NCBI RefSeq assembly: GCF_021021555.1
Contig: NZ_JAINWA010000001.1
Coordinates: 124,001-188,000 of the forward strand
DNA: 64,000 nucleotides
Origin: Teretinema zuelzerae
GTDB lineage: Bacteria; Spirochaetota; Spirochaetia; Treponematales; Treponemataceae
Direction: 5' to 3'
Positions 6,359 through 20,710 of this stretch are shown one piece after another; positions within the stretch are counted from its first letter, which is position 1; every line of letters begins with the position of its first letter. The notes beneath the pieces were generated by a model that worked only from the letters and a program-made list of their open reading frames with translations, made no database searches and had not been told where the DNA came from. Both the position numbers and the translations under genes were made by a program.

Positions 6359-7362
6359 TGAATAAAAGGCTCCCAATTTCGAGTGATTTCTACGGCGTCG
6401 CGGGAAAATCGATATCTGTTAACATGCACCCATTTTCGAACCTGAAGAAAAATAGAGAACGCATCGAATATGCCTAACCCTGAACGCGGCAGGAAGGAAA
6501 GAAACCGGACCAGGGGAAGCACAGCCTCGTCTTTTCGGAACGAGGGAGCGAGATTTTTCAGATAAAACCGGACGTAGGACCGGTCTGAACTGATGTCCTC
6601 CTGCGGGACTTCCCCGTCGTAGGACGCTCTAAAAGACGTCGACAAACGGATCTGCTCTCCCCACAGCGATGCCCGGAATCCGAAATCCAGATTCTGCCAA
6701 TACGGATTCGAAATAGTATGATCGAAGCCTCCGAGGCGGATGAAACGCTCACGATTATAAATGCCCGCAAAATCGAAAGGATACGAGGTAGGAGAACCAT
6801 CCTTGATGCAGGGCATCGGCTCAATTTGAAAACGCTTGTTTTTCAACGCCGGAACCATCTGAACCGGAAGGGATTCCATTCGTTGACTCGTCAGAACCGG
6901 AGCCGTGCACAGAAGGTTCTCTTCCTGTATCCGGCTCATCAGCCTCTGAGAAAGGGCGCCCTGGGACAATCGCATGTCGTTCCAGAGAACGAGAACCCAG
7001 GGAGACGACGTTTCCGCCATTCCGGCGTTTATCATTTCGCCTATCGTGAGATTTTCGAGGGGTACCAGAAAACGAACCGAAGGGAACCGTATTGAAAGAT
7101 TTTCGATGTCGTATGATTGGGAAACAAGGGAAGCGCCGGCTCCCGAGCCTGAAGAAGGCGCGGGGGGAGACTCAATTGACAGAATGGAATCGAAGCCGGC
7201 GCTTTCCAGGGACTGGAACACAGCCGATCGATAATACCGCCCTCCCCTGTTGAGCAGAATGACGGTGAAGGGGCTTCCTTCATCGTCGCTCTTTTTAACC
7301 GAGCCTCCGACTATTGTGTGAGACACCTTCCGTTCGTTAAAAATTATAGGTATAGAATTCAT
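6355..7362 (-). CDS. Glycosyltransferase family 2-like protein
   Basis: 335 residues from ATG 7362, which lies 26 bases inside the end of the spiro-SPASM gene. The layout fits a GT-A fold: PFTVILLNRGGRYYRSA near the N-terminus, SPWVLVLWNDMRLS (a likely nucleotide-sugar/metal strand, with NDM where DxD is usual), and the acceptor-side segment FDFAGIYNRERFIRLGGFD then YWQNLDFGFRASLWG. No signal peptide or membrane helix is seen, so it is cytoplasmic. Neighbouring nucleotide-sugar genes support a role in building a glycan, possibly on flagellin or on the surface. Donor and acceptor are unknown. Confidence 0.68.
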   Translation of the reverse strand: MNSIPIIFNERKVSHTIVGGSVKKSDDEGSPFTVILLNRGGRYYRSAVFQSLESAGFDSILSIESPPAPSSGSGAGASLVSQSYDIENLSIRFPSVRFLVPLENLTIGEMINAGMAETSSPWVLVLWNDMRLSQGALSQRLMSRIQEENLLCTAPVLTSQRMESLPVQMVPALKNKRFQIEPMPCIKDGSPTSYPFDFAGIYNRERFIRLGGFDHTISNPYWQNLDFGFRASLWGEQIRLSTSFRASYDGEVPQEDISSDRSYVRFYLKNLAPSFRKDEAVLPLVRFLSFLPRSGLGIFDAFSIFLQVRKWVHVNRYRFSRDAVEITRNWEPFIQ

Positions 7363-8908
7363 CACAGGCTCCGCACAGTCCCTCATAGATACGATTTCGA
7401 TGCTGTCGATAGACTTCGGCCCCTGCTTTCCAAATTTCCGGTAAAGCCTCTTCAAAAGCGTTGCCCAGCGGACGCAGCGCATGAAGATCTTCCCGGCACT
7501 GCGGGACCGTGCCGTCAAGCATGATACACATATCGCGCTTTATATGCCAGCAGGGATGGCGAACCAGCGGAGAAAGATCGGCTACCCGACGATCGGTTAT
7601 GGAGCCGCAAAAATGATCGTGTTTTTGGATGATGACGCGGCCGAGCTTTTCCTTCCAGAAGCGGTAGAAGGTTTCGACTTCCTGTTCGCTCTCGCGCAGG
7701 CGGAGCATCTGAGGCCACACAGCTCCGGGAAACAGCGTCTCCAGCGAAAAGACGAGATCCATGGCTGTCCGCAGATTCGAGTCCGCAACAGCGGAATCGG
7801 AAACGCCGTGAACCGAACCATAGAGAGCTGAACCCGCAGCGTCAAGCGATACGATCCAGTTGATGCGCGGCTCTTCTCCGGCATTCCGCACTGAAGCGGA
7901 AATCTTCGAAATCCCCTCAATCGCCGATCCGTTCCATCCGAGGCCGGTGGTTTCAATAACGAGAGAGAGCCCCGGATGCGAAAGCGTTTCCCTTGCTATT
8001 TCAACGATGTCGGGATGCCCCGAGCACTCGCCCCAAAGGGAAAGCGATACGACGGCTTCGCGGGAAAATTCTGAAATTTTTCCCATCAGGTTCGAGTAGT
8101 CGGAAAGGCTCATGAAGTCCGAACGATCGGTGACTTTTTTGCCGGGAGAGCGCGAGACGCCGCCTGAGCTCCATGCCGGATACGGACAGTAAACGCACTC
8201 ATGCGGACATCCGCCTGCGATCTGAATTTGATAATAGGCGGGCAGGGTTCGAAGCGAATCGCCTCTTTCTTCGACAAGCGCGGGAGCTGTATCCGCAGTA
8301 ATGTCGGCAAAGGATTCGCAGAGCAGCGTATTGCCGGCCGTATCGCATGAAAAATCAACCCTGAGTTGTCTCAAATCCACCGGCGATAGTACGGTTTCGA
8401 TATCGAATGAGTTTATCTCGCGTTTTAAAGTGTCGAAAACGAAGTTTCTCGTTACACGCAAAGCCGAATCCCGCGCCATCCGGGCGAGAACGGGGATGAT
8501 TCCGCGCGCAAGAATTTCCGGCATGAGGCCGGCAGGATAGCCGTCCGCGAAGGTATATTCGGCGCGCGACCGCTCGTGAAGTTCGAACAGTTTCCGGGCT
8601 CCCTCCGGATCGTAAAAAGGACGGTCGGCCCAGGCGAACCAGGCGTGATCATAGCCCCCGGATTCCTTCTCCATGCATTCAAAAAGAGAGGCTGCGGTAT
8701 TTCCATCGGAAAGAACGCACAGGCGATAGTCCGGCGAAGCGGGAATTTCAATCCGGGAATCAGGCGAACAAAGAACAACGATTGCATCGGTTTCCGGAAA
8801 TTTTCCGGCTCGTTCGATGCTGCGTTCGAAGGCGGATTTGCCGCCGCGGAGGGATGCAAGGGCGTACGAATTGATGTTTCCGGCATAAACGAAGGCTATA
8901 GCTTTCAT
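7337..8908 (-). CDS. Spiro-SPASM protein (radical SAM enzyme with N-terminal nucleotidyltransferase-like domain)
   Basis: 523 residues from ATG 8908. The first ~200 residues begin MKAIAFVYAGNINSYAL and resemble a sugar nucleotidyltransferase fold (FAWADRPFYDPEGARKLFEL). A radical SAM core follows with the CxxxCxxC iron-sulfur motif in GGCPHECVYCPYPAW at about residue 250, then LSLWGECSGHPDI. The C-terminus has a SPASM-like Cys set (CWHIKRDMCIMLDGTVPQC and CGACDEFY) for auxiliary clusters. This architecture is the spirochaete-restricted family known as spiro-SPASM, whose reaction is not established. It heads the run that leads through spsF/spsG to flaA, and the divergent xseA gene starts 68 bases away. 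Confidence 0.82.
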   Translation of the reverse strand: MKAIAFVYAGNINSYALASLRGGKSAFERSIERAGKFPETDAIVVLCSPDSRIEIPASPDYRLCVLSDGNTAASLFECMEKESGGYDHAWFAWADRPFYDPEGARKLFELHERSRAEYTFADGYPAGLMPEILARGIIPVLARMARDSALRVTRNFVFDTLKREINSFDIETVLSPVDLRQLRVDFSCDTAGNTLLCESFADITADTAPALVEERGDSLRTLPAYYQIQIAGGCPHECVYCPYPAWSSGGVSRSPGKKVTDRSDFMSLSDYSNLMGKISEFSREAVVSLSLWGECSGHPDIVEIARETLSHPGLSLVIETTGLGWNGSAIEGISKISASVRNAGEEPRINWIVSLDAAGSALYGSVHGVSDSAVADSNLRTAMDLVFSLETLFPGAVWPQMLRLRESEQEVETFYRFWKEKLGRVIIQKHDHFCGSITDRRVADLSPLVRHPCWHIKRDMCIMLDGTVPQCREDLHALRPLGNAFEEALPEIWKAGAEVYRQHRNRIYEGLCGACDEFYTYNF

Positions 8909-8918
8909 GGTATTATAC

Positions 8919-8945
8919 CTATCGGCATCTGACCTCTCTGCTTGA
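8919..8945 (-). promoter_or_regulatory. Candidate sigma-28-like promoter of the spiro-SPASM-to-flaA run
   Basis: On the minus strand TCAA (8945..8942), 15 bases, then GCCGATAG (8926..8919) resembles the flagellar sigma-28 consensus TAAA-N15-GCCGATAA with two mismatches. The end of the -10 box is only 10 bases from the ATG at 8908, giving almost no leader. A TATAAT also lies at 8917..8912 but without a matching -35 and too close to the start. Confidence 0.42.
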
Positions 8946-8970
8946 GGAAAGTCGACCGGCATGATAGGCT
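8942..8970 (+). promoter_or_regulatory. Weak candidate promoter of xseA
   Basis: TTGAGG (8942-8947), 17 bases, TAGGCT (8965-8970), six bases before the xseA ATG. The match to consensus is weak. If used, the transcript would be leaderless, which agrees with the lack of a Shine-Dalgarno sequence here. Confidence 0.3.
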
Positions 8971-10414: not shown

Positions 10415-12159
10415 TGGAATATAAACCGGTCCGCCAGCTTCCCCCTTCCGTAGCCCGTAAAATAGCGGCCGGAGAAGTTATCGATCGGCCTTCGGCAGTC
10501 GTCCGCGAGCTGATGGATAACGCTATAGACGCCGGAGCGACCAGAATCCACGTTGAAATAGCAAACGGCGGCATCGACCTCATAAGAGTCACCGACAACG
10601 GTTCGGGAATGACAGCGGAAGACCTCGCATTATGCACGCGGACCCATACAACCAGCAAGATATCGGAAGAAACGGATTTGCTTCGCCTATCCACGCTCGG
10701 TTTCCGCGGAGAAGCGCTCTCGTCGATCGACGCGGTGAGCCGTCTGGAAATACGGACTTCGCGCGAAAACTCAGGATCATGGATACTCGATCTGGGCAAC
10801 ATCAGAGCTGGAAACCATCCGATAGGGACATCGGTTTCTGTTGAAGGTCTTTTTGAAAACTTCCCCGCGCGCAAACAGTTTCTTAAACGGAGTTCGGCCG
10901 AATCAAGCCAATGCCGGCAGATTTTTATAGAGAAAGCCCTCGCCTGGCCCGGTCTCGAGTTCAAATTCTCGGTCGACGGTGAAACCAGATTTCTGCTTCC
11001 TCCGGCCGCGACGTATCTTGAAAGGACGCTGGCCGCCCTTGAGCCGAAGGAGCCGGATACGCTTTTCTCCCAGATTCACGGAGTCGGAGACCGCTTTACA
11101 TTCTCCGCGGTACTCGGTTCGCCGGATGTCGTGCGCGCGGACAGGCGTTTCGAGATGATCTTCATCAACGGCAGACGCATCATGGAATACAGCCTTCTGC
11201 AAGCCCTGGAATACGGGTGCGAGGGGCATTTTCCGAACGGATCACATCCTGTAGCATGCCTGTTCATCGATATCGACCCGTCGCTCGTGGATTTCAATAT
11301 TCATCCGGCCAAACGCGAGGCTCGTTTCCGCGATCCGGGAGCTCTCCATCACAGCGTTAGCTCCGTCGTCAAGGACTACTATCGGCGCTATGCCGTCAGA
11401 GAACTGAAACGGGAGGAAGCCGAACCCGCTCAGGACTTTATTTTTCCGTCGGACGGAACCCGCGAACACCCGCTCCAAAGCCGATCATCTGAGCCCCTTT
11501 CCAAACAAGAAGCATTCTTCGCCCCCAAAACCTACGCCGAGTACGCGCTATCCGCCGGGACCCATCCGCATCAGGCGGCCGCAGAACGCGAATCTCCGAT
11601 CCCGGAGTCCGAAGCACAAGACTTCAGATATCTCGGGCAGGTGCTTGGAACCTTTCTCGCGGTAGAAAAGCGCAATATCTTCTATTTAATAGACCAGCAC
11701 GCGGCCCATGAACGAATCCTGTATCAAGAATTGATGGAAACAAGACATGAAAGCCAGAACCTCCTGATACCCTACCGGATTGAGCCCGCGGGGGAAACAG
11801 ACACCGAAAGGTTACGGCGCATTCAAAGAGATCTTGCGGACGCCGGCTTCGACATCGAAGAGGAATCCGACGGAGCATGGCAGGTTGCATCCGTTCCGTC
11901 GAGGTGGGTGGGAAAGCGGACTGATTTAATCGGGGAGATCCTTGATCCCGCGGTCGAACCTGAATCGCTGGTGACGCATCTCTATGCCACGGCTGCCTGC
12001 AGAGCCGCCTGCAAAGACGGAGACGTTCTCGACAGCGGTACCGCGATGCGGATTATTCGGCAGGCCTTCGAGCTCGAGGAACCCCTGTGCCCGCACGGAA
12101 GGCCCCTTTGGATCATGATGGACCGGGAGGAGCTCTTCCGTAAAATCAGGCGGACTTAA
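10414..12159 (+). CDS. mutL: DNA mismatch repair protein MutL
   Basis: 581 residues. The N-terminal GHKL ATPase shows RKIAAGEVIDRPSAVVREL, DNAIDAGA, RVTDNGSGM and TLGFRGEALSSI; HPAKREARF marks the end of the conserved half. The C-terminal domain has FYLIDQHAAHERILYQEL, close to the DQHA(x)2E(x)4E endonuclease motif of methyl-independent MutL (the last Glu is one residue later than usual, with Gln in its place), plus ACRAACKDGD and CPHGRP. This suggests a nicking MutL. It ends convergently with the TPR gene, the two stop codons overlapping at 12156-12159. Confidence 0.95.
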   Translation: MEYKPVRQLPPSVARKIAAGEVIDRPSAVVRELMDNAIDAGATRIHVEIANGGIDLIRVTDNGSGMTAEDLALCTRTHTTSKISEETDLLRLSTLGFRGEALSSIDAVSRLEIRTSRENSGSWILDLGNIRAGNHPIGTSVSVEGLFENFPARKQFLKRSSAESSQCRQIFIEKALAWPGLEFKFSVDGETRFLLPPAATYLERTLAALEPKEPDTLFSQIHGVGDRFTFSAVLGSPDVVRADRRFEMIFINGRRIMEYSLLQALEYGCEGHFPNGSHPVACLFIDIDPSLVDFNIHPAKREARFRDPGALHHSVSSVVKDYYRRYAVRELKREEAEPAQDFIFPSDGTREHPLQSRSSEPLSKQEAFFAPKTYAEYALSAGTHPHQAAAERESPIPESEAQDFRYLGQVLGTFLAVEKRNIFYLIDQHAAHERILYQELMETRHESQNLLIPYRIEPAGETDTERLRRIQRDLADAGFDIEEESDGAWQVASVPSRWVGKRTDLIGEILDPAVEPESLVTHLYATAACRAACKDGDVLDSGTAMRIIRQAFELEEPLCPHGRPLWIMMDREELFRKIRRT

Positions 12160-14300
12160 AGAGTGGAGAGCAGAGCGCGAACTTCAGCGGCGTTCTTGTA
12201 GTCGGGCTTCTTCTGAATCAGTTCCTGCAAAATCGCCTTGGCTCCGGCCTTATCTCCGAGGCTTATATGCAGCTTGCCCAATTCATGATAGGCCTCCCAG
12301 CGGGACGGATCGAGAGCGATCAGCTCTTTGTAGGTGTCGCGGGCCTTCTCCGTAAGCCCGGCGCTGACGTAGGCCACCGCGAGATTCGCCCGCACGGTCG
12401 GATCCCGAGGAGCCTTGTTCAATGCCCTGGCATAGTGTTCCACCGATTTGTCGAACGAGCCCTTCAAGGCCCAGGCCTTTCCCAGATTATTGTTCACTTC
12501 GAAGTTGTCTTTCTCCACCAGGTACGCGGCGTTGAACTGGTTCAGGGCCTCGTCGAGACGGCCGGCGTCCAGATACATAATACCCAGATTGATCCTCGGT
12601 TTTACGTATTTCGGATCAGCCGCGATAGCCTTTGCGTACTGCTGAATAGCGACGTCCGGCATGCCGTTCAATTCACCTGCCAATCCGTAGGTATACAAAT
12701 ATGTTCCGTTCTGAGGCTCGGCCTCGACAGCTTTGCGCGCATAATCCAGCGCCTGGGCGGGCTTTTGCAGTCCCAGCTGAACGACAGCCATGTTGTAATT
12801 CGTCATTGGGTCCGAACTTCCCAGAACCAGAGCTTCCTTGAAAAAGCGCTCTGCATCCGCGAAACGGCCTTCCTTGCTATAGAGCGCCGCCAGCTCCCTG
12901 AGGGCTGAAACATTTCCGGGCTCATGAACGAGCGCTTCTTTATAAGCGGTTTCGGCGCCTTTGAAATCTCCGTTCTTATCCAGCAACCTGCCGATCTCGA
13001 TCTGCGCCCTGCTGTAATCCGGTTTGATTTTAATCGCCGAGCGGAACGCGGCTATCGATTCAGAGTTCAATCCGAGCGCTTTATTAGTCAAGCCGAGGTT
13101 AAAGAAAGCGGCTTCGAAGTCGCTCTTGAGCTGCGTTGTCTTCGCAAAGCTTTGCCGGGCGTCCTTGAATTGCTTGCGCAAATACTGCTGTTTACCCAGC
13201 TCGTAATGGTAGAGATAATTTCCGGGCTCCAGACGCGCGGCTTCGAGCAGATCGGCCAAAGCTTCCGCCGATTTCTTTTGTTCTACATATATCTGGCCGC
13301 GAGTGAATCGCGCCCGCGGATTTGTCGGGTCGGAGGATACCGCGAGATTGGCGTATTCGAGCGCGGAGGACAGAGCTTCGCTTTTCAAGGTGCTGTCCGA
13401 CTCGTTTTTCGCCAGGGCAAGCAAACTTTCAGCCATTTCCGTGTATTTGCCCGAGGCATAGGCCTTTTCGCCCTCAGGCAATGAATTGCGAGCTTCGTCG
13501 AAGGCAGACAAGGCTGAGCGCAAACTGCCGGCGGACGCCCGTTCTTTCCCTTTCTCGACGGCAGAATTTACGGCTTCTATTCTTTTCCGCGTCTCCGCGT
13601 TCTTTTTTGACAATTCTTCTTCAGCCGCTTTTCTTTTTGCCTCTTCTGCGGCGGCCTGTTCTTTCTGCAACGCCGCTTCACGATCTCGAGCTTCTCTGTC
13701 TTCTTTTTCTTTTTGAGCGGCTTCCTCTGCGCGGCGCTTGTCGTCCGCCGCTTTAAGACCCGGATCTTCCTGAACGGTTTTTTTCGCCTGCAGCTCTGAA
13801 ACCTTTGTGCCTGCTCTCTCTTCGTCCGATTCAACAGATTTGCTTCCGGACGCTTTGTTTCGCTCGGCTGCGTCTGCCGAGGACACTGAGGCGGCCCTCG
13901 AGGCGGCTGCAGCGGCCGCGTCCGCCGCGGCAGATACGCGGGCGATGGCTTCCCTTGCGGCATCCAAAGCGGCCTGCAATTCCTCTGTGCTGACCGAGCC
14001 GGACCCGTCGGCGTAGGCGTTTTTCAATCGGCGGGCTTCGAGCACCGCGTCGAGAAGAGCCGAGGCATCCGAATCCTCGGGATTCTGAATGAGCAAGCCT
14101 TCCAGGAGCGAAAGGGCGCGGTCGAATTCCTCGCGTTCAACATAATTACGGACAAGAGTAAGCGTATTCTGCCTCAACGCAGTCGAATCAGAAGCGGCTC
14201 CGCTTCTTTTAGACGCAATAACAAGCCCGATGCCGAGCAATAAAAGCAATACCGCAACTCCGGCGCCGATCAATACGATTTTCTTCTGTTTACTATTCAA
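12156..14300 (-). CDS. Membrane-anchored TPR-repeat protein
   Basis: About 714 residues. I take the TTG at 14300 as start because an AGGAGG lies six bases before it. The product begins MNSKQKKIVLIGAGVAVLLLL, a single N-terminal membrane helix. Residues ~80-260 are Ala/Glu/Lys-rich and probably coiled coil; from ~270 onward there are about a dozen tetratricopeptide repeats (for example ARFTRGQIYVEQKKSAEALA, AFFNLGLTNKALGLNSESIA). TPRs scaffold protein complexes; no enzyme domain is visible. It overlaps the upstream TPR gene by eight bases, so the two form an operon. Specific role unknown. Confidence 0.8.
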   Translation of the reverse strand: MNSKQKKIVLIGAGVAVLLLLLGIGLVIASKRSGAASDSTALRQNTLTLVRNYVEREEFDRALSLLEGLLIQNPEDSDASALLDAVLEARRLKNAYADGSGSVSTEELQAALDAAREAIARVSAAADAAAAAASRAASVSSADAAERNKASGSKSVESDEERAGTKVSELQAKKTVQEDPGLKAADDKRRAEEAAQKEKEDREARDREAALQKEQAAAEEAKRKAAEEELSKKNAETRKRIEAVNSAVEKGKERASAGSLRSALSAFDEARNSLPEGEKAYASGKYTEMAESLLALAKNESDSTLKSEALSSALEYANLAVSSDPTNPRARFTRGQIYVEQKKSAEALADLLEAARLEPGNYLYHYELGKQQYLRKQFKDARQSFAKTTQLKSDFEAAFFNLGLTNKALGLNSESIAAFRSAIKIKPDYSRAQIEIGRLLDKNGDFKGAETAYKEALVHEPGNVSALRELAALYSKEGRFADAERFFKEALVLGSSDPMTNYNMAVVQLGLQKPAQALDYARKAVEAEPQNGTYLYTYGLAGELNGMPDVAIQQYAKAIAADPKYVKPRINLGIMYLDAGRLDEALNQFNAAYLVEKDNFEVNNNLGKAWALKGSFDKSVEHYARALNKAPRDPTVRANLAVAYVSAGLTEKARDTYKELIALDPSRWEAYHELGKLHISLGDKAGAKAILQELIQKKPDYKNAAEVRALLSTL

Positions 14301-15030
14301 GCTGTGCCTCCTCGTTGTACTCCATAACATCTTCAGATCCCGCGGACAGAGTGCTCGCGGCGTCGACAGACTGCAACGAAGAGCTCACCTCGTCCATAAT
14401 CCGTTGATACCGTTCAGCGGCGGCGGCCCTTTCAGCCTCGGCCGCTACGCGCTCAGCCTCCGAGCGAAGCTCTGCGTTCTTTCTCTCTGTTTCTTCGCTT
14501 TCCAGCAGCGCGATGATCTGCCTGATCGAATCCTTCTGCCACGTGGCTGGATCGAGCATCAGATAATTCCGATAATCCGCCGCCGCCTCAGCGAATCTGC
14601 CAAGACGGACGCGGGCATTCGCCCGGTTCAAATATACCGGCGCCCAGAATGCGTCGATCTCGGCGGCGCGGACATACATGCTTTCCGCCTCGGCGAACAG
14701 TTCCTGCAAAAAATACACGTTTCCTGCGTTGAAAAAAAGGACCTTCCGATCCGTTCCCGGCGCTGAAGCTCCGCGCATGAAAGCGCTTACGGCGTCTGCG
14801 TATTTACCCGTCTGCTGATAGCCCAAACCGAGGTAGACGAATACCCGGGGATCGACGCCCGGCTGCAGCGACGCCTGATACAGAAGCGGAATAGCCTCCT
14901 CGGGACGGTTTTCCCGGAACAGCCGTTCGCCTTCGGCGAAATAATCCAGGGCAAAGGCGGAAAACGACGTTAGCATGAGCATCGAGAGGCTTAAAATCAA
15001 CGTCCGAAGCGCTCGTCTTTTTGCATTCAT
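14293..15030 (-). CDS. Exported TPR-repeat protein
   Basis: 245 residues from the ATG at 15030 (another ATG lies at 15039). The N-terminus MNAKRRALRTLILSLSML then TSFSAFA is a signal peptide. Three or four TPR units follow (EGERLFRENRPEEAIPLLYQ, VYLGLGYQQTGKYADAVSAF, VYLNRANARVRLGRFAEAAA), then a basic coiled-coil stretch rich in Ala, Glu and Arg. It is probably a periplasmic scaffold. It is co-transcribed with the downstream TPR gene and diverges from the membrane TPR gene at 15068 across a gap under 40 bases. Confidence 0.75.
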   Translation of the reverse strand: MNAKRRALRTLILSLSMLMLTSFSAFALDYFAEGERLFRENRPEEAIPLLYQASLQPGVDPRVFVYLGLGYQQTGKYADAVSAFMRGASAPGTDRKVLFFNAGNVYFLQELFAEAESMYVRAAEIDAFWAPVYLNRANARVRLGRFAEAAADYRNYLMLDPATWQKDSIRQIIALLESEETERKNAELRSEAERVAAEAERAAAAERYQRIMDEVSSSLQSVDAASTLSAGSEDVMEYNEEAQLE

Positions 15031-15032
15031 AT

Positions 15033-15059
15033 TTGACATTACCCCATAAAAGCTATAGT
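15033..15059 (+). promoter_or_regulatory. Candidate promoter of the TPR/Mrr-like operon
   Basis: TTGACA (15033-15038), 15 bases, TATAGT (15054-15059). The boxes are near consensus but the spacer is short. The -10 box ends eight bases before the ATG at 15068 and no ribosome site is present, so the mRNA may be leaderless. Confidence 0.42.
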
Positions 15060-15061
15060 CT

Positions 15062-15073
15062 TGACATATGTCA
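15062..15073. repeat. 12-bp perfect palindrome over the 15068 start codon
   Basis: TGACATATGTCA reads the same on both strands and contains the ATG of the 15068 gene. It lies in the short divergent region between the two TPR transcription units and could be an operator; chance is possible. Confidence 0.35.
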
Positions 15074-16450
15074 TCAATGTTTATCGGTATCATTGTAATT
15101 CTCGGCGCGGGAGTTGCGGTCCTGATGGTATTCGTCGTCAAATCCTTCATCGCCCCGCAAAAGATAGCTGGAATCGACAAACTCATATCCAACGGTAAAT
15201 ACGGTCCGGCAATAAAAGCCGCGAAGGCGATTATAGCGAGAAATCCCAGAGACACGGAAGCAAGATACCTCTTGGGCAAGGCATACCTCGCAGACGGCAA
15301 GGCCGAATTGGCCCTTATGGAGTTCAAGACGGTCAACGCGACGGCTATTTTCTCCAAAACAATCCCTGAAGCAGAGTTCAGAAAAACAATAGCCCAGCTC
15401 TTCTTAAAATACAACCAGCCCGACGAAGCCCTGAAAGAATTTCTTCTTCTCATAAAATTGGAGCCGTTCCAGGCCGAACACTATTATAACGCGGCCCAGA
15501 TGTTCGAACAACGGGACAATTCCGAACAGGCTATCCAGTATTATAGAAAGGCGGTTGAAACCGACCCAAAGCACGCGACCGCGCATGCAGCCCTGGGTTT
15601 TCTGTTATTCAAGAACAAGCAAATGACCGACGCGAAAACAGAAATTTCGCTGGCGCTCAAACTCGATCCTAAAAACTCGAAAGCCTACTTCTTCCAGGGA
15701 AAGCTTCTCCGGGAAAGCCATGATTACGCGAACGCCCTGGCTGCCTTTGAAAAAGCGCTTCGGGAACCTGAGTTCAAGCAGAAAGCCCTCATAGAACGCG
15801 GATGTTGTTATATCGAAGCGAATAGCCTGGAAAAAGCCATTGTCGAATTCGACAGAGCGATCAAGGCATCGACGGACGATTCGTCCAACGACACCCTCCA
15901 TGCACGTTATTTCCTGGCGACCTGCTACGAGAAGCAACGCGACATCGATAAGGCCATCGGACAATGGGAGAAAATTTTCGTTAAAAAACGCAATTTCCGC
16001 GATGTCGGAGAAAAACTCACCCAGTATCAGGAACTACGGTCTAACGACCACATGAAAGAATATCTGACCGCGTCGAAAGACGATTTTTTTACCATCTGCA
16101 AAGCGCTCACCAATAAGTGCCTTGAACTTGCGGTACGGGAAATAAAGGAAACAAAGTACGGCTGTTCTTTGATTGCCGTAGAAAACGACGCGGAAAAATG
16201 GCGCAATGTTCGAAAAATGCCGCGCATGATCCTTTTTTACCGCGATCCCAACATGATAGAAGACGCCTTCTTGAGAACTCTGCAGGAGGAGATGAAAAAA
16301 CAATCCATCATCAGAGGAATAGTCATTACCAGTTCTGGCTTCACCCGCGCGGCTCTCGAATTCGCGGAAAGCCGGCCGTTGGAGCTGATCAACAAGGACA
16401 AGCTCGAACAGATGTTGTCTCAAGCTGATGTTTTCGCGGAAAACCAGTAG
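15068..16450 (+). CDS. Membrane TPR protein with Mrr-like C-terminal domain
   Basis: 460 residues. An N-terminal membrane helix (FIGIIVILGAGVAVLMVFVV) is followed by TPR repeats from about residue 35 to 310 (for example HYYNAAQMFEQRDNSEQAIQ, ATAHAALGFLLFKNKQMTDA). The last ~110 residues end RGIVITSSGFTRAALEFAE then PLELINKDKLEQML, which closely resembles the end of Mrr-type restriction-endonuclease domains. The usual D and QxK catalytic residues of Mrr are not evident, so the domain may bind rather than cut DNA. It starts a three-gene run with a phosphoesterase and a ParB-like protein. Function unknown. Confidence 0.72.
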   Translation: MSSMFIGIIVILGAGVAVLMVFVVKSFIAPQKIAGIDKLISNGKYGPAIKAAKAIIARNPRDTEARYLLGKAYLADGKAELALMEFKTVNATAIFSKTIPEAEFRKTIAQLFLKYNQPDEALKEFLLLIKLEPFQAEHYYNAAQMFEQRDNSEQAIQYYRKAVETDPKHATAHAALGFLLFKNKQMTDAKTEISLALKLDPKNSKAYFFQGKLLRESHDYANALAAFEKALREPEFKQKALIERGCCYIEANSLEKAIVEFDRAIKASTDDSSNDTLHARYFLATCYEKQRDIDKAIGQWEKIFVKKRNFRDVGEKLTQYQELRSNDHMKEYLTASKDDFFTICKALTNKCLELAVREIKETKYGCSLIAVENDAEKWRNVRKMPRMILFYRDPNMIEDAFLRTLQEEMKKQSIIRGIVITSSGFTRAALEFAESRPLELINKDKLEQMLSQADVFAENQ

Positions 16451-16458
16451 CATCCCAC

Positions 16459-17142
16459 ATGAAAATCCTCTGCGTATCCGATCAGATTGATCCTCTTGTA
16501 TACAGCAGCAACGTTAAAGAAAGATATAAGGACGTAGATCTCGTTATTTCCGCAGGCGATCTGCCGATGGAGTATCTGGAGTTCATTGTTTCGTCGCTGA
16601 ACAAACCGGTTCTCTTCGTGTTCGGCAACCACAATTTAAGCGAATTCGGACAATATCACTCCGTCAACCCTGAAAACGCCCCGAACCCGAGGCAGATGAA
16701 TCCGCTGACAAGAAGCATGACCGGGCACGGCACGACCTATATCGGATTTAAAACGATAAAAGAAAGCGGATTATTGATCGCGGGCGTTTCCGGCTCGCTT
16801 AATTACAATAACGGATTAAATCAGTATTCCGACGCGCAGATGAAACGAAAGCTGTTAAAACTCTTTCCCGCACTCCTGTACAACCGGATCAAATACGGCA
16901 GGTGGCTCGATATTCTGGTAACCCACGCATCTCCCGCCGGAATACACGACAAGCCCGATCCCTGCCATCAGGGTTTTTCATCATTCCTCTGGTTTATGAA
17001 GAAATTCCGGCCGAGGTGGCTCATCCACGGCCATATCCATTTATACGATCTGCAGGACATCCGCGTTTCATCCTTTGAGCAAACAACTGTCATCAACGCA
17101 TATAGTCATTTTATACTTGATACCGGAGCACCGTCAAAATGA
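16459..17142 (+). CDS. Calcineurin-like metallophosphoesterase
   Basis: 227 residues with the metallophosphoesterase order: MKILCVSDQIDP, DLVISAGDLP, VLFVFGNHNL, ILVTHASPAG and LIHGHIHLYD. The first motif, normally DxH, reads D-Q-I here, so one metal ligand differs. The gene begins eight bases after the TPR/Mrr-like gene, without its own ribosome site, and its end overlaps the ParB-like gene by four bases (ATGA). Substrate unknown: family members act on phosphoproteins, nucleotides or nucleic acids. Confidence 0.82.
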   Translation: MKILCVSDQIDPLVYSSNVKERYKDVDLVISAGDLPMEYLEFIVSSLNKPVLFVFGNHNLSEFGQYHSVNPENAPNPRQMNPLTRSMTGHGTTYIGFKTIKESGLLIAGVSGSLNYNNGLNQYSDAQMKRKLLKLFPALLYNRIKYGRWLDILVTHASPAGIHDKPDPCHQGFSSFLWFMKKFRPRWLIHGHIHLYDLQDIRVSSFEQTTVINAYSHFILDTGAPSK

Positions 17143-18044
17143 GCGACCTAATTAAGCATCAAGCGGAAGATGATTTCAACAAGGCACGGAACAAAGCCCT
17201 TTTCAATGAAATACAGAATTTCTTGAATCCCGACCGATCGAAACTCCTCTCGTTTCACGATGTCAAGAAAATCCTGAAACCGAAAAACGAAGTATATGCG
17301 GGAATGCAGACCATTCCGATAGACAGAATCGTAGGAAGCGAAGGCCGGTATCAGGATTTCGACAGCCATTTTCTTCCGAAATCGAGAAACCTCAAGGAAC
17401 GATGGGAACGAGTGGACAGCGCGCATCTCTCCGATACAGTGCTTCCCCCTATCCAGCTGTATGAAATCGGCGGGCTGTATTTCGTGAGAGACGGAAACCA
17501 TCGCGTATCCGTCGCGAAAGCCCAGGGCGTCGGATATATCGACGCCGAAGTAATCTCCTTGAAAAGCGAGATCACCCTGAAACCGGGATTGAATCCCGAA
17601 TCGCTGTTGACCGAAGTCATCAAATATGAAAAGAGAATCTTCTATACGGAGACATCTTTCGGAGATCTGACTGATTACTGGGATCTGGAGTTCACCAGCC
17701 CCGGTCAATACGACGTTATATATAATCATATTCTTGTCCATAAATACTTTATCAACGAGACAAAAAAGGAAGAAATCCCCTTTCAGGACGCCCTCCTTTC
17801 ATGGTTCGACAATGTATACAAGCCGGTGCTTCACGTAATTCAAAAGAAAAAGCTTCTGAAGATGTTTCGCGACAGGACGGCAAGCGATCTATACGTATGG
17901 ATCATCAAACAGTGGGACGAACTGAAAAGAAAATACGGATTGGAATTCAGCCTGGATCAGGCGACGCAAGTCATTGCAGACACTCACAACAGAAACCCCT
18001 TGCGTGTCGTGTCGGACTGGTTCAAAAGAACCTTTCAAACTTGA
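17139..18044 (+). CDS. ParB/Srx-fold domain protein of unknown role
   Basis: 301 residues. Residues ~55-145 resemble the ParB N-terminal (sulfiredoxin-like) fold, with IPIDRIVGSEGRYQDFD, PPIQLYEIGGLYFVRDGNHR and VSVAKAQGVGYIDAEV; the R-DGNHR box is the nucleotide-binding signature of this fold. The C-terminal half (TASDLYVWIIKQWDELKRKY) is helical and resembles a partner domain seen with ParB-like folds in other bacteria. No helix-turn-helix typical of true ParB is seen, so chromosome partitioning is unlikely. It overlaps the phosphoesterase gene, and its TGA lies inside the -35 box of the next unit. Confidence 0.66.
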   Translation: MSDLIKHQAEDDFNKARNKALFNEIQNFLNPDRSKLLSFHDVKKILKPKNEVYAGMQTIPIDRIVGSEGRYQDFDSHFLPKSRNLKERWERVDSAHLSDTVLPPIQLYEIGGLYFVRDGNHRVSVAKAQGVGYIDAEVISLKSEITLKPGLNPESLLTEVIKYEKRIFYTETSFGDLTDYWDLEFTSPGQYDVIYNHILVHKYFINETKKEEIPFQDALLSWFDNVYKPVLHVIQKKKLLKMFRDRTASDLYVWIIKQWDELKRKYGLEFSLDQATQVIADTHNRNPLRVVSDWFKRTFQT

Positions 18045-18077: not shown

Positions 18078-19736
18078 ATGCAAACAGCACTACTAGAAAC
18101 GTACACCGCACTTCCCCTGATAGCGAGTTTGTTGGTTCAAGGGGCAAGCGGCTTGTTTTTATTCCGGATTGCAAAACAATTCCCTAATAAAATCACCAGC
18201 CCGTCGTACATCAAACTTGCTTCGCTGTTTATAGCTCTTCTCGGTTTAAACAGCATCGTCGCCATTTTCATTCCAAGCCTGCTTATTTTCTCAACCGGCG
18301 TTTTCATCGCGAACATCGTTTTTCTCGCATTCTTGATTCTTGCGGGAAAAAATCTTGCCCAAATACGCATCGAGGAAGCCCAAACGCAGGAAATCGCGAC
18401 GGTAACCGAGAACGATGCGGATAACGGCGAAGACCCCCTTATCGAAGTAGGCCGTTCGGTTTTGTCGTATGTATCCGAATCCATCACCGGCGAAATAAAC
18501 CTCGTGCGCCTTTTGGACTTCGTCAATCAAACGCAAATGGCGCATACGAAAGCGGACGGAGGAGTTATTTTCCTTGCGGACGATTTCGACGATCTTATCG
18601 CGGCAAAATCCTTTGCGGGAAACTTTCCGCCGCCCTATAAGCTTCCCGTGGATCTTCCCCACAAACCGGTTCGGGTTGAGACGAATTTCAGATACACGCA
18701 ATTTGCGCTGGGCGAAACAATCTTCGGAGAAGTAGCATCCACCGGAAAACCGGCTTTGATCGTCGATGGAGAAAAAGATTCGCGAATATTCAGCAACGGA
18801 CCTGAAGAGTTCTTGAAGCCGGGCAGCTACATCGTCGTTCCGCTCATGGTAAAGGACAGAGTTGTCGGCGTTTCAGGCCTTGCTCGCCTTCCTGAAAACG
18901 CCCCGTTCGGCGAAGCCGAACTGCGGACAGCCACGATCCTGGCTGGCTTTGCGGGAGCCGCAATAAATAACATCTTCAGCGTTCAGGAAATTCTTGAACG
19001 AGCCGATTTGGAGCGCGAGGCCAGCATAGCCTCGCAAATTCAGAAAACGTTGCATCCGAAACGGCTCCCCGAACTTCCCGAGATCGGTTTCGGATCCTTC
19101 TTTAATTCGACGAAGGGCGTTTGCGGAGATTATTACGATATTATTCTGGCCCGACGCGACAGAATAGCGGTAGCTATCGCAGATGTCGCCGGAAAAGGGA
19201 TTCAATCGAGCATGGTAATGATCATGCTCCGCTCGATACTCCATTTGGTGACCAACACCACGAAGTCCGCAGGAACTATCCTCGACTGGGTGAACAAGGG
19301 CATCACCGGCAAGATCGATATGGACCACTACGCGACGCTCACCTACATCAGCTTCAGTCCGGAAGATCACACCCTTGAATACGCGACCGCGGGGCATCAG
19401 CCCATGCTGATATGGCGAGCAGACTCAAAACAAGTAGAGACCATTCATCAGAAAACGGATCCAATCGGAATCGAACGTTCTTCTACATACGCGGAAATGA
19501 AGTTGACAGTCGGTAAAGGAGATATTATTATTCTCTTCACTGATGGACTGATCGAGGCGTTGAACAGGGATGGAAAGCAGTACGGAATAGAGACTCTTTC
19601 TAAAACAATATCTGCGAGCACACATAAAACGGCAAAAGAAATAGCGTCAGACGTGAAACACCACATCCAGGCTTTTATCGGATCAGCAAGTCTCCATGAC
19701 GACCAAACATTGGTCATTATGAAGATAAAAGCCTAG
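18078..19736 (+). CDS. Membrane GAF-PP2C phosphatase (RsbU/SpoIIE family)
   Basis: 552 residues. Three membrane helices lie in the first ~95 residues. A GAF-type sensor occupies about residues 130-310 (GGVIFLADDFDDLIAAKSFA, PGSYIVVPLMVKDRVVGVSG). The PP2C/SpoIIE phosphatase starts at about 320 with ASIASQIQKTLHPKRLPELP, then VCGDYYDIILARRDRIAVAI, ADVAGKGIQSSMVM, LEYATAGHQPMLIW and ILFTDGLIEALNRDGKQYG; the Asp residues of DYYD, DVAGKG and FTDG are the metal ligands. It should dephosphorylate the STAS protein encoded next, in a partner-switching pathway triggered by a membrane or GAF ligand. Confidence 0.88.
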   Translation: MQTALLETYTALPLIASLLVQGASGLFLFRIAKQFPNKITSPSYIKLASLFIALLGLNSIVAIFIPSLLIFSTGVFIANIVFLAFLILAGKNLAQIRIEEAQTQEIATVTENDADNGEDPLIEVGRSVLSYVSESITGEINLVRLLDFVNQTQMAHTKADGGVIFLADDFDDLIAAKSFAGNFPPPYKLPVDLPHKPVRVETNFRYTQFALGETIFGEVASTGKPALIVDGEKDSRIFSNGPEEFLKPGSYIVVPLMVKDRVVGVSGLARLPENAPFGEAELRTATILAGFAGAAINNIFSVQEILERADLEREASIASQIQKTLHPKRLPELPEIGFGSFFNSTKGVCGDYYDIILARRDRIAVAIADVAGKGIQSSMVMIMLRSILHLVTNTTKSAGTILDWVNKGITGKIDMDHYATLTYISFSPEDHTLEYATAGHQPMLIWRADSKQVETIHQKTDPIGIERSSTYAEMKLTVGKGDIIILFTDGLIEALNRDGKQYGIETLSKTISASTHKTAKEIASDVKHHIQAFIGSASLHDDQTLVIMKIKA

Positions 19737-19760: not shown

Positions 19761-20099
19761 ATGGAACTGAAAATCAGAAAAAACGGTGAAGTATACATCA
19801 TAGATGTGAACGGCGAGATGGATTTGTACAATTCATACAAGCTTAAAGAGCTTGTAATGAAAATGCTTGAGAAGAATGTTCAATCCTTCATCATTAATCT
19901 TGAACAAGTTGATTATATCGACTCGTCAGGCATCGGAGCATTGATTTATATATGCTCAACTGTAAAAAAGATGAACCTGAAGCTTGCGATAACAAATATC
20001 CACGGCTCGGTAAAAAAAGTTATTGAATTGACGAAATTGATGGGTTATTTCCCAATAACCAACAGCATTGAAGAAGCTCTCCAGCAGATGGAAGGCTGA
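19761..20099 (+). CDS. STAS-domain anti-sigma-factor antagonist
   Basis: 112 residues, a single STAS domain. VDYIDSSGIGALIYICSTVK contains the conserved Ser in DSSG that is phosphorylated by RsbW/SpoIIAB-type kinases. GAAAGGAGC precedes the ATG by about 10 bases. It lies between the phosphatase and kinase genes, the classic partner-switching order. Confidence 0.9.
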   Translation: MELKIRKNGEVYIIDVNGEMDLYNSYKLKELVMKMLEKNVQSFIINLEQVDYIDSSGIGALIYICSTVKKMNLKLAITNIHGSVKKVIELTKLMGYFPITNSIEEALQQMEG

Positions 20100-20122: not shown

Positions 20123-20674
20123 ATGAATCCGATTAAGGAACTTCGAGCGGATGGCAGCGATCCGCTGTTTGATAAAACAAATATGCTCTACAAGGAATTC
20201 CCTTCGGATTTCCGACAGATCAGGTACTTTACCCTGCTCATCGTTCAATCCGCGCCTCTTGAAATCAAGGAGATTAATCTTCTTGAGCAACAGATCAGCG
20301 AAATTATTAAAAACGCGGTAAAACACGGAAACGATTGCGATCTTAACAAGAAAGTTCGCGTTTGGTATTCGTTCAGTTCAACCCACGCGCACCTCATTGT
20401 CGAAGACGAAGGATCCGGTTTCAAGGATCTGGAAAAGTGGAACGATTTCAATCGAAAACGCCTTGAATGCCTGTACCAGCAGGATTTTGAACACCTGGGA
20501 TCCTTCGTTTCGTTCAGAACGAATAAAAGCGATGAGCAGGACGGCGGAAACGCCTTGTTCGCAGCGCTGGAATATTGGAACGGCGGATTCGTTTATAACG
20601 ACAAGAAAAACGGCGTAGCGATGTTGAAAAAATATCCGCAAAGACGCCATGGAATAACAATCGACGGGGAATAA
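20123..20674 (+). CDS. RsbW-like anti-sigma factor / serine kinase
   Basis: 183 residues with a GHKL ATPase fold: the N box EQQISEIIKNAVKHGND and the G1 box VEDEGSGFKD are clear. Such proteins phosphorylate the STAS partner and sequester a sigma factor or another target. The C-terminal ~70 residues (WNDFNRKRLECLYQQDFEHL onward) are longer than in plain RsbW. No sigma-factor gene lies beside it, so its target is unknown and may not be a sigma factor. A strong terminator follows. Confidence 0.82.
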   Translation: MNPIKELRADGSDPLFDKTNMLYKEFPSDFRQIRYFTLLIVQSAPLEIKEINLLEQQISEIIKNAVKHGNDCDLNKKVRVWYSFSSTHAHLIVEDEGSGFKDLEKWNDFNRKRLECLYQQDFEHLGSFVSFRTNKSDEQDGGNALFAALEYWNGGFVYNDKKNGVAMLKKYPQRRHGITIDGE

Positions 20675-20684
20675 CCCCAAAATG

Positions 20685-20710
20685 AAAGGACTGCATGGCA
20701 GTCCTTTTTT
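20685..20710 (+). terminator. Rho-independent terminator after the rsbW-like gene
   Basis: AAAGGACTGC, loop ATG, GCAGTCCTTT, followed by further Ts: a perfect 10-bp stem with a U-tract, 10 bases after the stop of the kinase gene. The convergent gene's stop lies just beyond. Confidence 0.9.

Follow-up and report, generated by a model that had tools for sequence, protein, structure and literature searches.

Co-inheritance of a metallophosphoesterase with a ParB/sulfiredoxin-fold protein in spirochaetes and other bacteria

Three closely packed genes of the spirochaete Teretinema zuelzerae raise the question of whether a membrane-anchored repeat protein, a phosphoesterase and a ParB-like protein form one unit, and what such a unit might do in the cell. 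The genes, here called A, B and C, lie in a stretch of 64,000 nucleotides (hereafter the window; NCBI RefSeq assembly GCF_021021555.1, contig NZ_JAINWA010000001.1, positions 124,001 to 188,000 of the forward strand). They are co-directional, with 8 bases between A and B and an overlap of 4 bases between B and C. These three open reading frames (ORFs), with spacings of 8 and -4, had been described in a first-pass annotation made from the sequence alone, and their coordinates and spacings were confirmed. The same annotation treated the three as a single unit, perhaps related to defence or chromosome anchoring. The comparisons described here lead to another division of the locus, in which B and C are a true evolutionary pair and the A-B-C trio is not one evolutionary unit. 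A functional coupling of B with C, by whatever mechanism, is very probable.

The pairing is seen most directly in the presence and absence of the two genes. Among 296 Spirochaetota genomes, 108 carry both, six carry B only, two carry C only and 180 carry neither (thresholds: E<=0.001 for C, searched with a single protein, and E<=1e-15 for B, searched with a profile); the completeness of the C-only genomes is 76 and 66 percent, that of one B-only genome, G114, 82 percent, so that the discordance may partly reflect missing sequence. Under a 500-base rule, the order is B-C in 93 genomes out of the 108 and C-B in three, and the two genes are non-adjacent in 12, a class that includes three genomes (G003, G068, G092) whose B and C share a contig, a few kb apart at most. 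The 201 Chloroflexota genomes, searched with both profiles at E<=1e-15, divide into 72 with both genes, nine with C only, one with B only and 119 with neither, the C matches including longer paralogues and partial matches. Their 72 pairs comprise 36 in the order B-C, seven in the order C-B, four on opposite strands within 1 kb and 25 further apart, which leaves 47/72 within 1 kb in three arrangements. Co-occurrence therefore survives unlinking, because 12 Spirochaetota and 25 Chloroflexota genomes hold both genes apart.

A wider search with C over 84,980 species genomes returned at least 587 relatives, many of them Chloroflexota, of which the best 80 loci were kept. In 73 of the 80, B stands just upstream of C or the two are fused; all 80 have C, and the eight in which the simple gene caller gave none were left out of the neighbour table. 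In a metagenome-assembled genome (MAG) of Spirochaeta (L152), B and C are fused as one protein of 528 aa. Five plasmid records have a C match, and in four of them B is directly adjacent: Tsukamurella and Collinsella (Actinomycetota) and two Cetobacterium (Fusobacteriota). Ten plasmid records have a B match, among which Subdoligranulum (Bacillota), known here from a single unannotated assembly, also has a C domain, immediately ahead of B. Distances in the B and C trees correlate (r of 0.82 overall, 0.88 for Chloroflexota alone). Chloroflexota fall largely apart from the rest in both trees; FastTree support for this split in the C tree is 0.06, and the best split in the B tree also includes eight non-Chloroflexota loci. 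Congruent trees are what would be expected of an old, mainly vertically inherited pair. The family counts used below, 144 for B, 161 for C and 55 for A, are counts of sequences and not of independent genomes, and repeats include L114 = L078 and L166 = L068.

A signature of dependence was found in one genus (g2; genomes G019, G031, G126, G165 and G173), in which a C match was absent from 5/5 genomes and B is kept beside A, in the order A-B-RsbU-STAS-RsbW (read in L216). The B protein of this genus carries N57S, H170Q and H192Q in 5/5 genomes, and its Y116 has become His in four and Arg in one; N57, H170 and H192 are intact in 144/144 B sequences found near C. B is also intact at the tested residues where C is present but apart (L217, L249, L250 and L251, and L254 apart from its last column; the N-terminal B columns of L252 and L253 are unreadable in this comparison). 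Such a loss of residues would be expected if B's reaction had no use without C, and the fold of the decayed protein may still have a role in binding to a partner.

B itself matches PF00149 with 35.4 bits, against a cut-off of 21.5, and occurs in one copy per genome at E<=1e-15 in Spirochaetota. Its ligand set (D-x-H, GD, GNH, H, GHxH) is complete apart from the first His. The altered first metal motif, D-Q-I, had already been noticed in the first-pass annotation and holds for the family: the motif reads D8-Q9-I10, and of the 144 aligned sequences one has a gap at position 10 and none of the other 143 has His there. D8 is found in 143/143 sequences, D34, N57, H58, H156, H170, H190 and H192 in 144/144, and H194 in 138/144. 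Judged by these motifs, B is a divergent calcineurin-like metallophosphoesterase with a predicted activity, in which H170 may replace the missing first-motif metal ligand. Against the PDB, the nearest matches of the B profile are MPPED2 (E 5e-5) and the lariat debranching enzyme Dbr1 (E 1e-4).

The AlphaFold2 model of C (predicted local distance difference test score, pLDDT, 93.9) places a ParB/sulfiredoxin-fold domain at about residues 50-146, with the box D118-G-N-H-R122. Foldseek returned two matches at E<=0.001, both ParB-N, with the pNOB8-like ParB-N at E 1.3e-4. VIA-align placed ParB, Noc, sulfiredoxin, SbnI and SerK at Z 5.0-7.8 (the SerK and SbnI entries at 5.0-6.7), against 3.4 or less for clearly unrelated rows; all rows at Z>=5 have this fold except 4ovb (Osa, Z 5.0), all are below Z 8, and the list bears on the ParB/sulfiredoxin-fold half while hardly testing the helical C-terminal half. 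At the level of profiles the likeness fades to a weak match of C to a ParB (4umk, E 0.035), and ParB_N (PF02195) was not listed for the window's C at E<=0.1, two homologues scoring 13.5 and 13.7 bits where the cut-off is 26.3. The sole Pfam entry at E<=0.1 is DUF4032 (PF13224), to which the window's C scores 19.6 bits, under the cut-off of 23.8, and which is passed by the homologues in L083 (25.8 bits), L118 (25.9 bits) and L125 (37.4 bits); neither HTH_ParB nor the ParB dimerisation domain was found in C by Pfam. As modelled, C is a ParB/sulfiredoxin fold followed by a helical DUF4032-like tail, in agreement with the fold first proposed for it.

Within the box, which is of the form DG(N/H)HR, D118, G119 and R122 are found in 161/161 sequences and H121 in 160/161; the ParB box is of GERR type, where C has DGNHR. 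Position 68 is Glu in 118/161 sequences and, by the offset of the aligned ranges, would correspond to E30 of SerK. SerK E30 is presumably catalytic, as the E30 mutant entries among the VIA-align matches indicate. The isoelectric point (pI) of C is 7.1, and that of its nucleoside triphosphate (NTP) domain is 5.9. SerK shows that a ParB-type fold is able to phosphorylate (PMC5120207), and a 2025 survey of the fold has its members binding ATP, GTP or CTP (PMC12704722); C would probably bind an NTP too.

Domains of this kind also occur in other architectures. In Collinsella (L239:5088-7001), a protein that stands directly before B and is annotated as a BMP-family ABC (ATP-binding cassette) transporter substrate-binding protein has a C-like ParB-fold domain at its start, and the annotation may hide a cytoplasmic sensor; the C-domain protein of Subdoligranulum (L241:4097-6013) is of similar length and has the same position. 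In Chloroflexota, C is fused to Usp (universal stress protein) domains in L118:631-2385 and L136:5893-7695, and B was not found in those stretches. Tandem longer C-like paralogues of 413 and 415 aa lie in L088:5301-7915 (-), where B was not found nearby; the same genome (G066, family f46) also carries a normal B-C pair.

Gene A has a different history. Its N-terminal membrane helix (about residues 5-27, with a peak 19-residue hydropathy of 3.05 at residue 6) and many TPR matches in Pfam agree with the membrane anchor and TPRs read from the sequence at the outset. The C-terminus had been proposed to have the Mrr restriction-endonuclease fold without an obvious catalytic set, and this was upheld in both parts. 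Mrr_cat (PF04471) scores 32 bits with the whole of A and 33.9 bits with the window's domain alone, against a cut-off of 21; it is matched by 46/46 of the C-terminal domains at E<=0.01, and NA-iREase1 (PF22722) by 17/46, while in the deeper relative L231 the Mrr_cat match spans 5-115 of 115 positions with 51 bits. From about residue 330, the AlphaFold2 model (pLDDT 91.2) runs helix, three strands, helix, strand, helix, strand, helix. No acid-x-Lys nuclease pair is conserved in residues 352-395 of the 55 sequences, and deeper aligned members are alike; at the expected nuclease site, located from predicted strands, are F390 (46/55) and R392 (54/55), and within the same range E372 is kept in 39/55. 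By its sequence, the domain is an Mrr-like fold without a conserved nuclease set. TPR-type repeat proteins were among the 50 matches listed by Foldseek for the A model against the PDB; a profile of the C-terminal domain against the PDB gave nothing convincing (best E 0.09, a designed protein), and NCBIfam gave no above-cut-off match for A, B or C among the matches listed.

A's domain is present in 250 of the 296 Spirochaetota genomes, and at least 136 of these are without B, because B occurs in just 114 genomes. A adjoins B in at least 63 of the 114 B-bearing genomes, and A-B-C are contiguous in at least 57/296 (63 with A-B, minus five without C and one with C elsewhere); this much of the proposed three-gene unit stands, while the wider distribution of A's domain, set against B and C tracking each other, does not support the rest. 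In G056 (1.1 Mb, of the window's family), A is kept along with the divergent TPR genes beside it, and neither B nor C was found; in the Chloroflexota loci that carry B-C, A's domain was not found. Since A's domain outlives B-C, A is a widespread spirochaete protein that the "three-gene unit" joins to a separate pair, and on its distribution the idea of A as an equal partner of B and C was dropped.

In many spirochaetes A is found together with two divergent TPR genes, one of 724 aa and one of about 250 aa, and this holds without B-C too (L215). Their partner is more likely A than B-C, and A may belong functionally with them, because the grouping persists where B and C are absent. Two copies of A's domain are found in 47/49 genomes of the window's family, and the second TPR and Mrr-like protein of the window's genome has 533 aa (L214:5308-6906 (+); G000:C3:1477510-1477884) and is followed by a gene for 205 aa without a Pfam match. 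In the deep spirochaetes L218:4159-5979 (-) and L230:3634-5451 (-), a protein of about 606 aa with cyclic-nucleotide-binding and patatin-like phospholipase parts comes after A.

The most plausible account of B and C, although a tentative one, is that they are a writer-eraser pair acting on one phosphorylated target. C, as a nucleotide-binding-fold protein, would use bound NTP to phosphorylate or phosphate-modify the target, or would set its phosphorylation, and B would take the same phosphate off. In the window's class the pair would be set in an operon behind A as a membrane-anchored TPR scaffold, with the dead Mrr-like domain as the probable docking surface, and in Treponemataceae it would stand ahead of an RsbU/STAS/RsbW partner switch. 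The strongest argument for the writer-eraser view is the genus g2, because there the eraser lost its catalytic residues after the presumed writer was lost. The neighbours of B-C are RsbU-STAS-RsbW in the Treponemataceae type, a divergent cluster of Ser/Thr kinase, PP2C, DnaJ-VWA and FHA genes in the Anaerolineales type (Pfam on L144), and a histidine kinase in the Roseiflexaceae and Thermoflexus type (Pfam on L129). The neighbours in these three clades favour phospho-signalling, those in other clades do not, and a role of C in joining sensors and regulators may be the common thread.

Several observations weigh against a writer-eraser pair. Its weakest point is the chemistry of C, as position 68 is Leu in 33/161 C sequences; a SerK-type kinase reaction is not claimed for all members of the family, E68 not being universal. 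The decay of B in g2 is one evolutionary event in one genus, and in G114 B is intact where C was not found. B is missing at C in seven of the 80 best loci, several with little upstream sequence, and C is without B in nine of 81 C-bearing Chloroflexota genomes; Rubrobacter has a short C-like protein and no B-family match in its stretch, and five plasmid records without a C match have weaker B-like matches (E 6e-12 to 8e-7). Shared species history inflates both the Fisher values for co-occurrence, which are therefore not to be read as probabilities, and the tree correlation. The neighbours also point elsewhere in places: sugar ABC transporters with an amylase or glucan phosphorylase in Tsukamurella and Cetobacterium, NadA and NAD kinase flanking B-C in four loci (L078, L079, L081, L082), and, in a Dictyoglomus-like MAG (L112:1782-4940), a C gene placed after parA and parB and ahead of a UPF0102 gene, in a stretch where B was not found.

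The main rival fits the data nearly as well, though taken by itself it is rather unlikely: B and C would be subunits of one enzyme or switch, and NTP-bound C would gate the phosphoesterase activity of B instead of making its substrate. Adjacency with translational overlap, the natural B-C fusion and the loss of B residues in the C-less genus are all in keeping with a gated complex, C domains fused to ligand-binding Bmp or Usp domains would fit a sensor, and a conserved DGxHR box beside a variable position 68 is also in line with it; what speaks against it is that B and C lie apart in many genomes, including the 25 of 72 Chloroflexota beyond 1 kb. If instead C sensed or made a nucleotide that B degrades, as in nucleotide metabolism or a second-messenger system, the NadA and NAD kinase neighbours would find a place, and metallophosphoesterases do include nucleotide phosphodiesterases. 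The ligands ascribed to ParB-fold proteins in the available survey text (PMC12704722) agree with this too. This reading is nevertheless improbable, given that the nearest PDB profiles of B, MPPED2 and the debranching enzyme, match weakly and that no consistent neighbourhood of nucleotide genes was seen.

The remaining explanations are weaker. A membrane-anchored nucleoid or chromosome complex, in which C would be a ParB/Noc-like CTP-dependent DNA clamp held by A, had been hinted at in the first-pass annotation and could draw on the fold of C, on the hydropathy of A and on the one locus with C behind parA and parB. It is very unlikely, as C lacks the HTH and dimerisation domains of ParB by Pfam, is not basic, and belongs to a pair separable from A. 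The likewise early suggestion of an anti-phage defence unit is the least likely of all, even with the Mrr-like domain of A and the PADLOC matches taken into account (candidate model PDC-S10 against B at 37 bits, E 5e-10, the only clear one, other matches being at E>=7e-4; mREase_IV against A at 15.9 bits). The nuclease set of A is unconserved, each genome has a single B copy at E<=1e-15, the B and C trees are largely congruent, synteny and pairing are stable within families and not of island type (defence genes around the locus were not searched for), and 50,697 phage records gave one weak C match (E 9e-5, 24 percent of the query). That B and C are ordinary neighbours without a common function, co-inherited through common ancestry, would suit the congruence of their trees, as plain vertical descent gives it, and is again highly improbable: the pairing occurs in several phyla and in both orders, the match of presence and absence holds where the genes are unlinked, and the fusion and the loss of B residues without C would be unexplained.

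Coming back to the writer-eraser pair, its fullest form would be an undescribed kind of bacterial reversible phosphorylation, with a ParB/sulfiredoxin-fold phosphotransferase as writer and a dedicated metallophosphoesterase as eraser, plugged by phylum into partner-switching, Ser/Thr kinase clusters or sugar uptake, and, in spirochaetes, tethered to the membrane by a TPR scaffold whose nuclease domain is dead. In this full form the proposal is doubtful.

The surroundings of the pair in the window are collected in Table 1. Downstream of C, the gaps to the RsbU-like, STAS and RsbW-like genes are 33, 24 and 23 bases, and their matches (SpoIIE 157.6 bits, STAS 83.8 bits, HATPase 30.3 bits) are all above their own Pfam cut-offs. 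In a survey of 55 stretches, in which gene starts were estimated from the alignment, the A-B gap is 20 bases or less in 44/46 measurable loci, the B-C gap 30 bases or less in 51/54 and the C-RsbU gap 150 bases or less in 28/32. The gene order of the window is shared with the Treponema sp. loci L155 and L171, and in Treponema relatives A-B-C likely heads a six-gene operon with the RsbU, STAS and RsbW-like genes. Terminator-like sites in the region number 12, against 11.3 in shuffled sequence, which is the level of the shuffle. Among those ORFs of the window's gene run that were scanned, none was recognised as a sigma factor gene.

Table 1. Features of the window around genes A, B and C.
Feature	Position	Strand	Description	Basis
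Gene A	15068..16450	+	460 aa; membrane helix, TPR array, degenerate Mrr-like C-terminal domain	ORF, Pfam, hydropathy, AlphaFold2 model, family alignment of 46
Mrr-like C-terminal domain of A	16043..16447	+	about residues 330-455	profile match, alignment
Gene B	16459..17142	+	227 aa; calcineurin-like metallophosphoesterase	ORF, Pfam, family alignment
Gene C	17139..18044	+	301 aa; ParB/sulfiredoxin-fold domain, then helical DUF4032-like region	ORF, Pfam of homologues, AlphaFold2 model, structure matches
RsbU-like gene	18078..19736	+	GAF and SpoIIE/PP2C phosphatase; probably same operon	Pfam; order kept in Treponemataceae relatives
STAS-domain anti-anti-sigma-like gene	19761..20099	+	probably same operon	Pfam; order kept in Treponemataceae relatives
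RsbW/SpoIIAB-like ATPase gene (HATPase_c_2)	20123..20674	+	probably same operon	Pfam, NCBIfam, order in relatives
Terminator-like stem	20684..20708	+	11 pairs, T-rich tail, 9 bases past RsbW-like gene	pattern match
Two divergent TPR genes	12156..15039	-	724 aa and about 250 aa	Pfam; shorter gene's start read by eye from the sequence

Elsewhere in the window (7337-8962, -), a protein of 541 aa looks like a radical SAM/SPASM protein on reading its sequence, with a CxxxCxxC-type cluster and C-terminal cysteines.

Outside chromosome partitioning, few proteins of the ParB fold have an assigned role, and a co-inherited phosphoesterase gives one clade of them a testable enzymatic context. Neither DUF4032 nor a metallophosphoesterase is mentioned in the available text of the 2025 survey of the fold (PMC12704722), and in the open-licence literature searched the term DUF4032 was absent and no description of the B-C pair was found. 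The parts of the pair are known folds; what is new, as far as that literature goes, is the conserved pairing with its signature of dependence, for which the genus with a decayed B represents a natural experiment. For spirochaetes, attention is drawn to the membrane protein A and to a possible input into a partner-switch operon.

Each part of the locus resembles a known system and departs from it. The fold of A's C-terminal domain is shared with Mrr_cat and NA-iREase1, whose profiles it matches, and differs in being fused to TPRs and a membrane helix and in its unconserved nuclease residues. With the calcineurin-like metallophosphoesterases (YfcE, MPPED2, Dbr1), B has in common the PF00149 match and the GD, GNH, H and GHxH motifs, whereas its family lacks the first-motif His in 143 members and has the extra invariant H170 and H190. 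The NTP domain of C has the fold of ParB and Noc (ParB 7o0n, Z 7.2, root-mean-square deviation (rmsd) 3.1 over 79), but C has neither HTH_ParB nor a dimerisation domain, and no parA was recognised beside it in the window. Its best Z is with a sulfiredoxin (6ky4, Z 7.8, rmsd 3.4 over 82), a likeness of structure, C being about three times longer (301 aa against 89-121 for solved sulfiredoxins). The free serine kinases SerK (5x0b, Z 6.7, rmsd 4.2 over 79) and SbnI (5ujd, Z 6.0, rmsd 2.8 over 75) share the fold over about residues 50-145 of C, and the DGVHR box of SbnI resembles the DGxHR-type box of C; in contrast to them, C carries a DUF4032-like helical domain in addition, is partnered by a phosphoesterase and has a candidate catalytic Glu that is not universal. 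As for DUF4032 itself, homologues of C pass the PF13224 cut-off, while the window's C stays below it. Finally, the SpoIIE phosphatase, STAS and HATPase genes follow C in the order known from RsbU-RsbV-RsbW partner switching, and the difference lies in A-B-C, which stand ahead of these three genes in the window.

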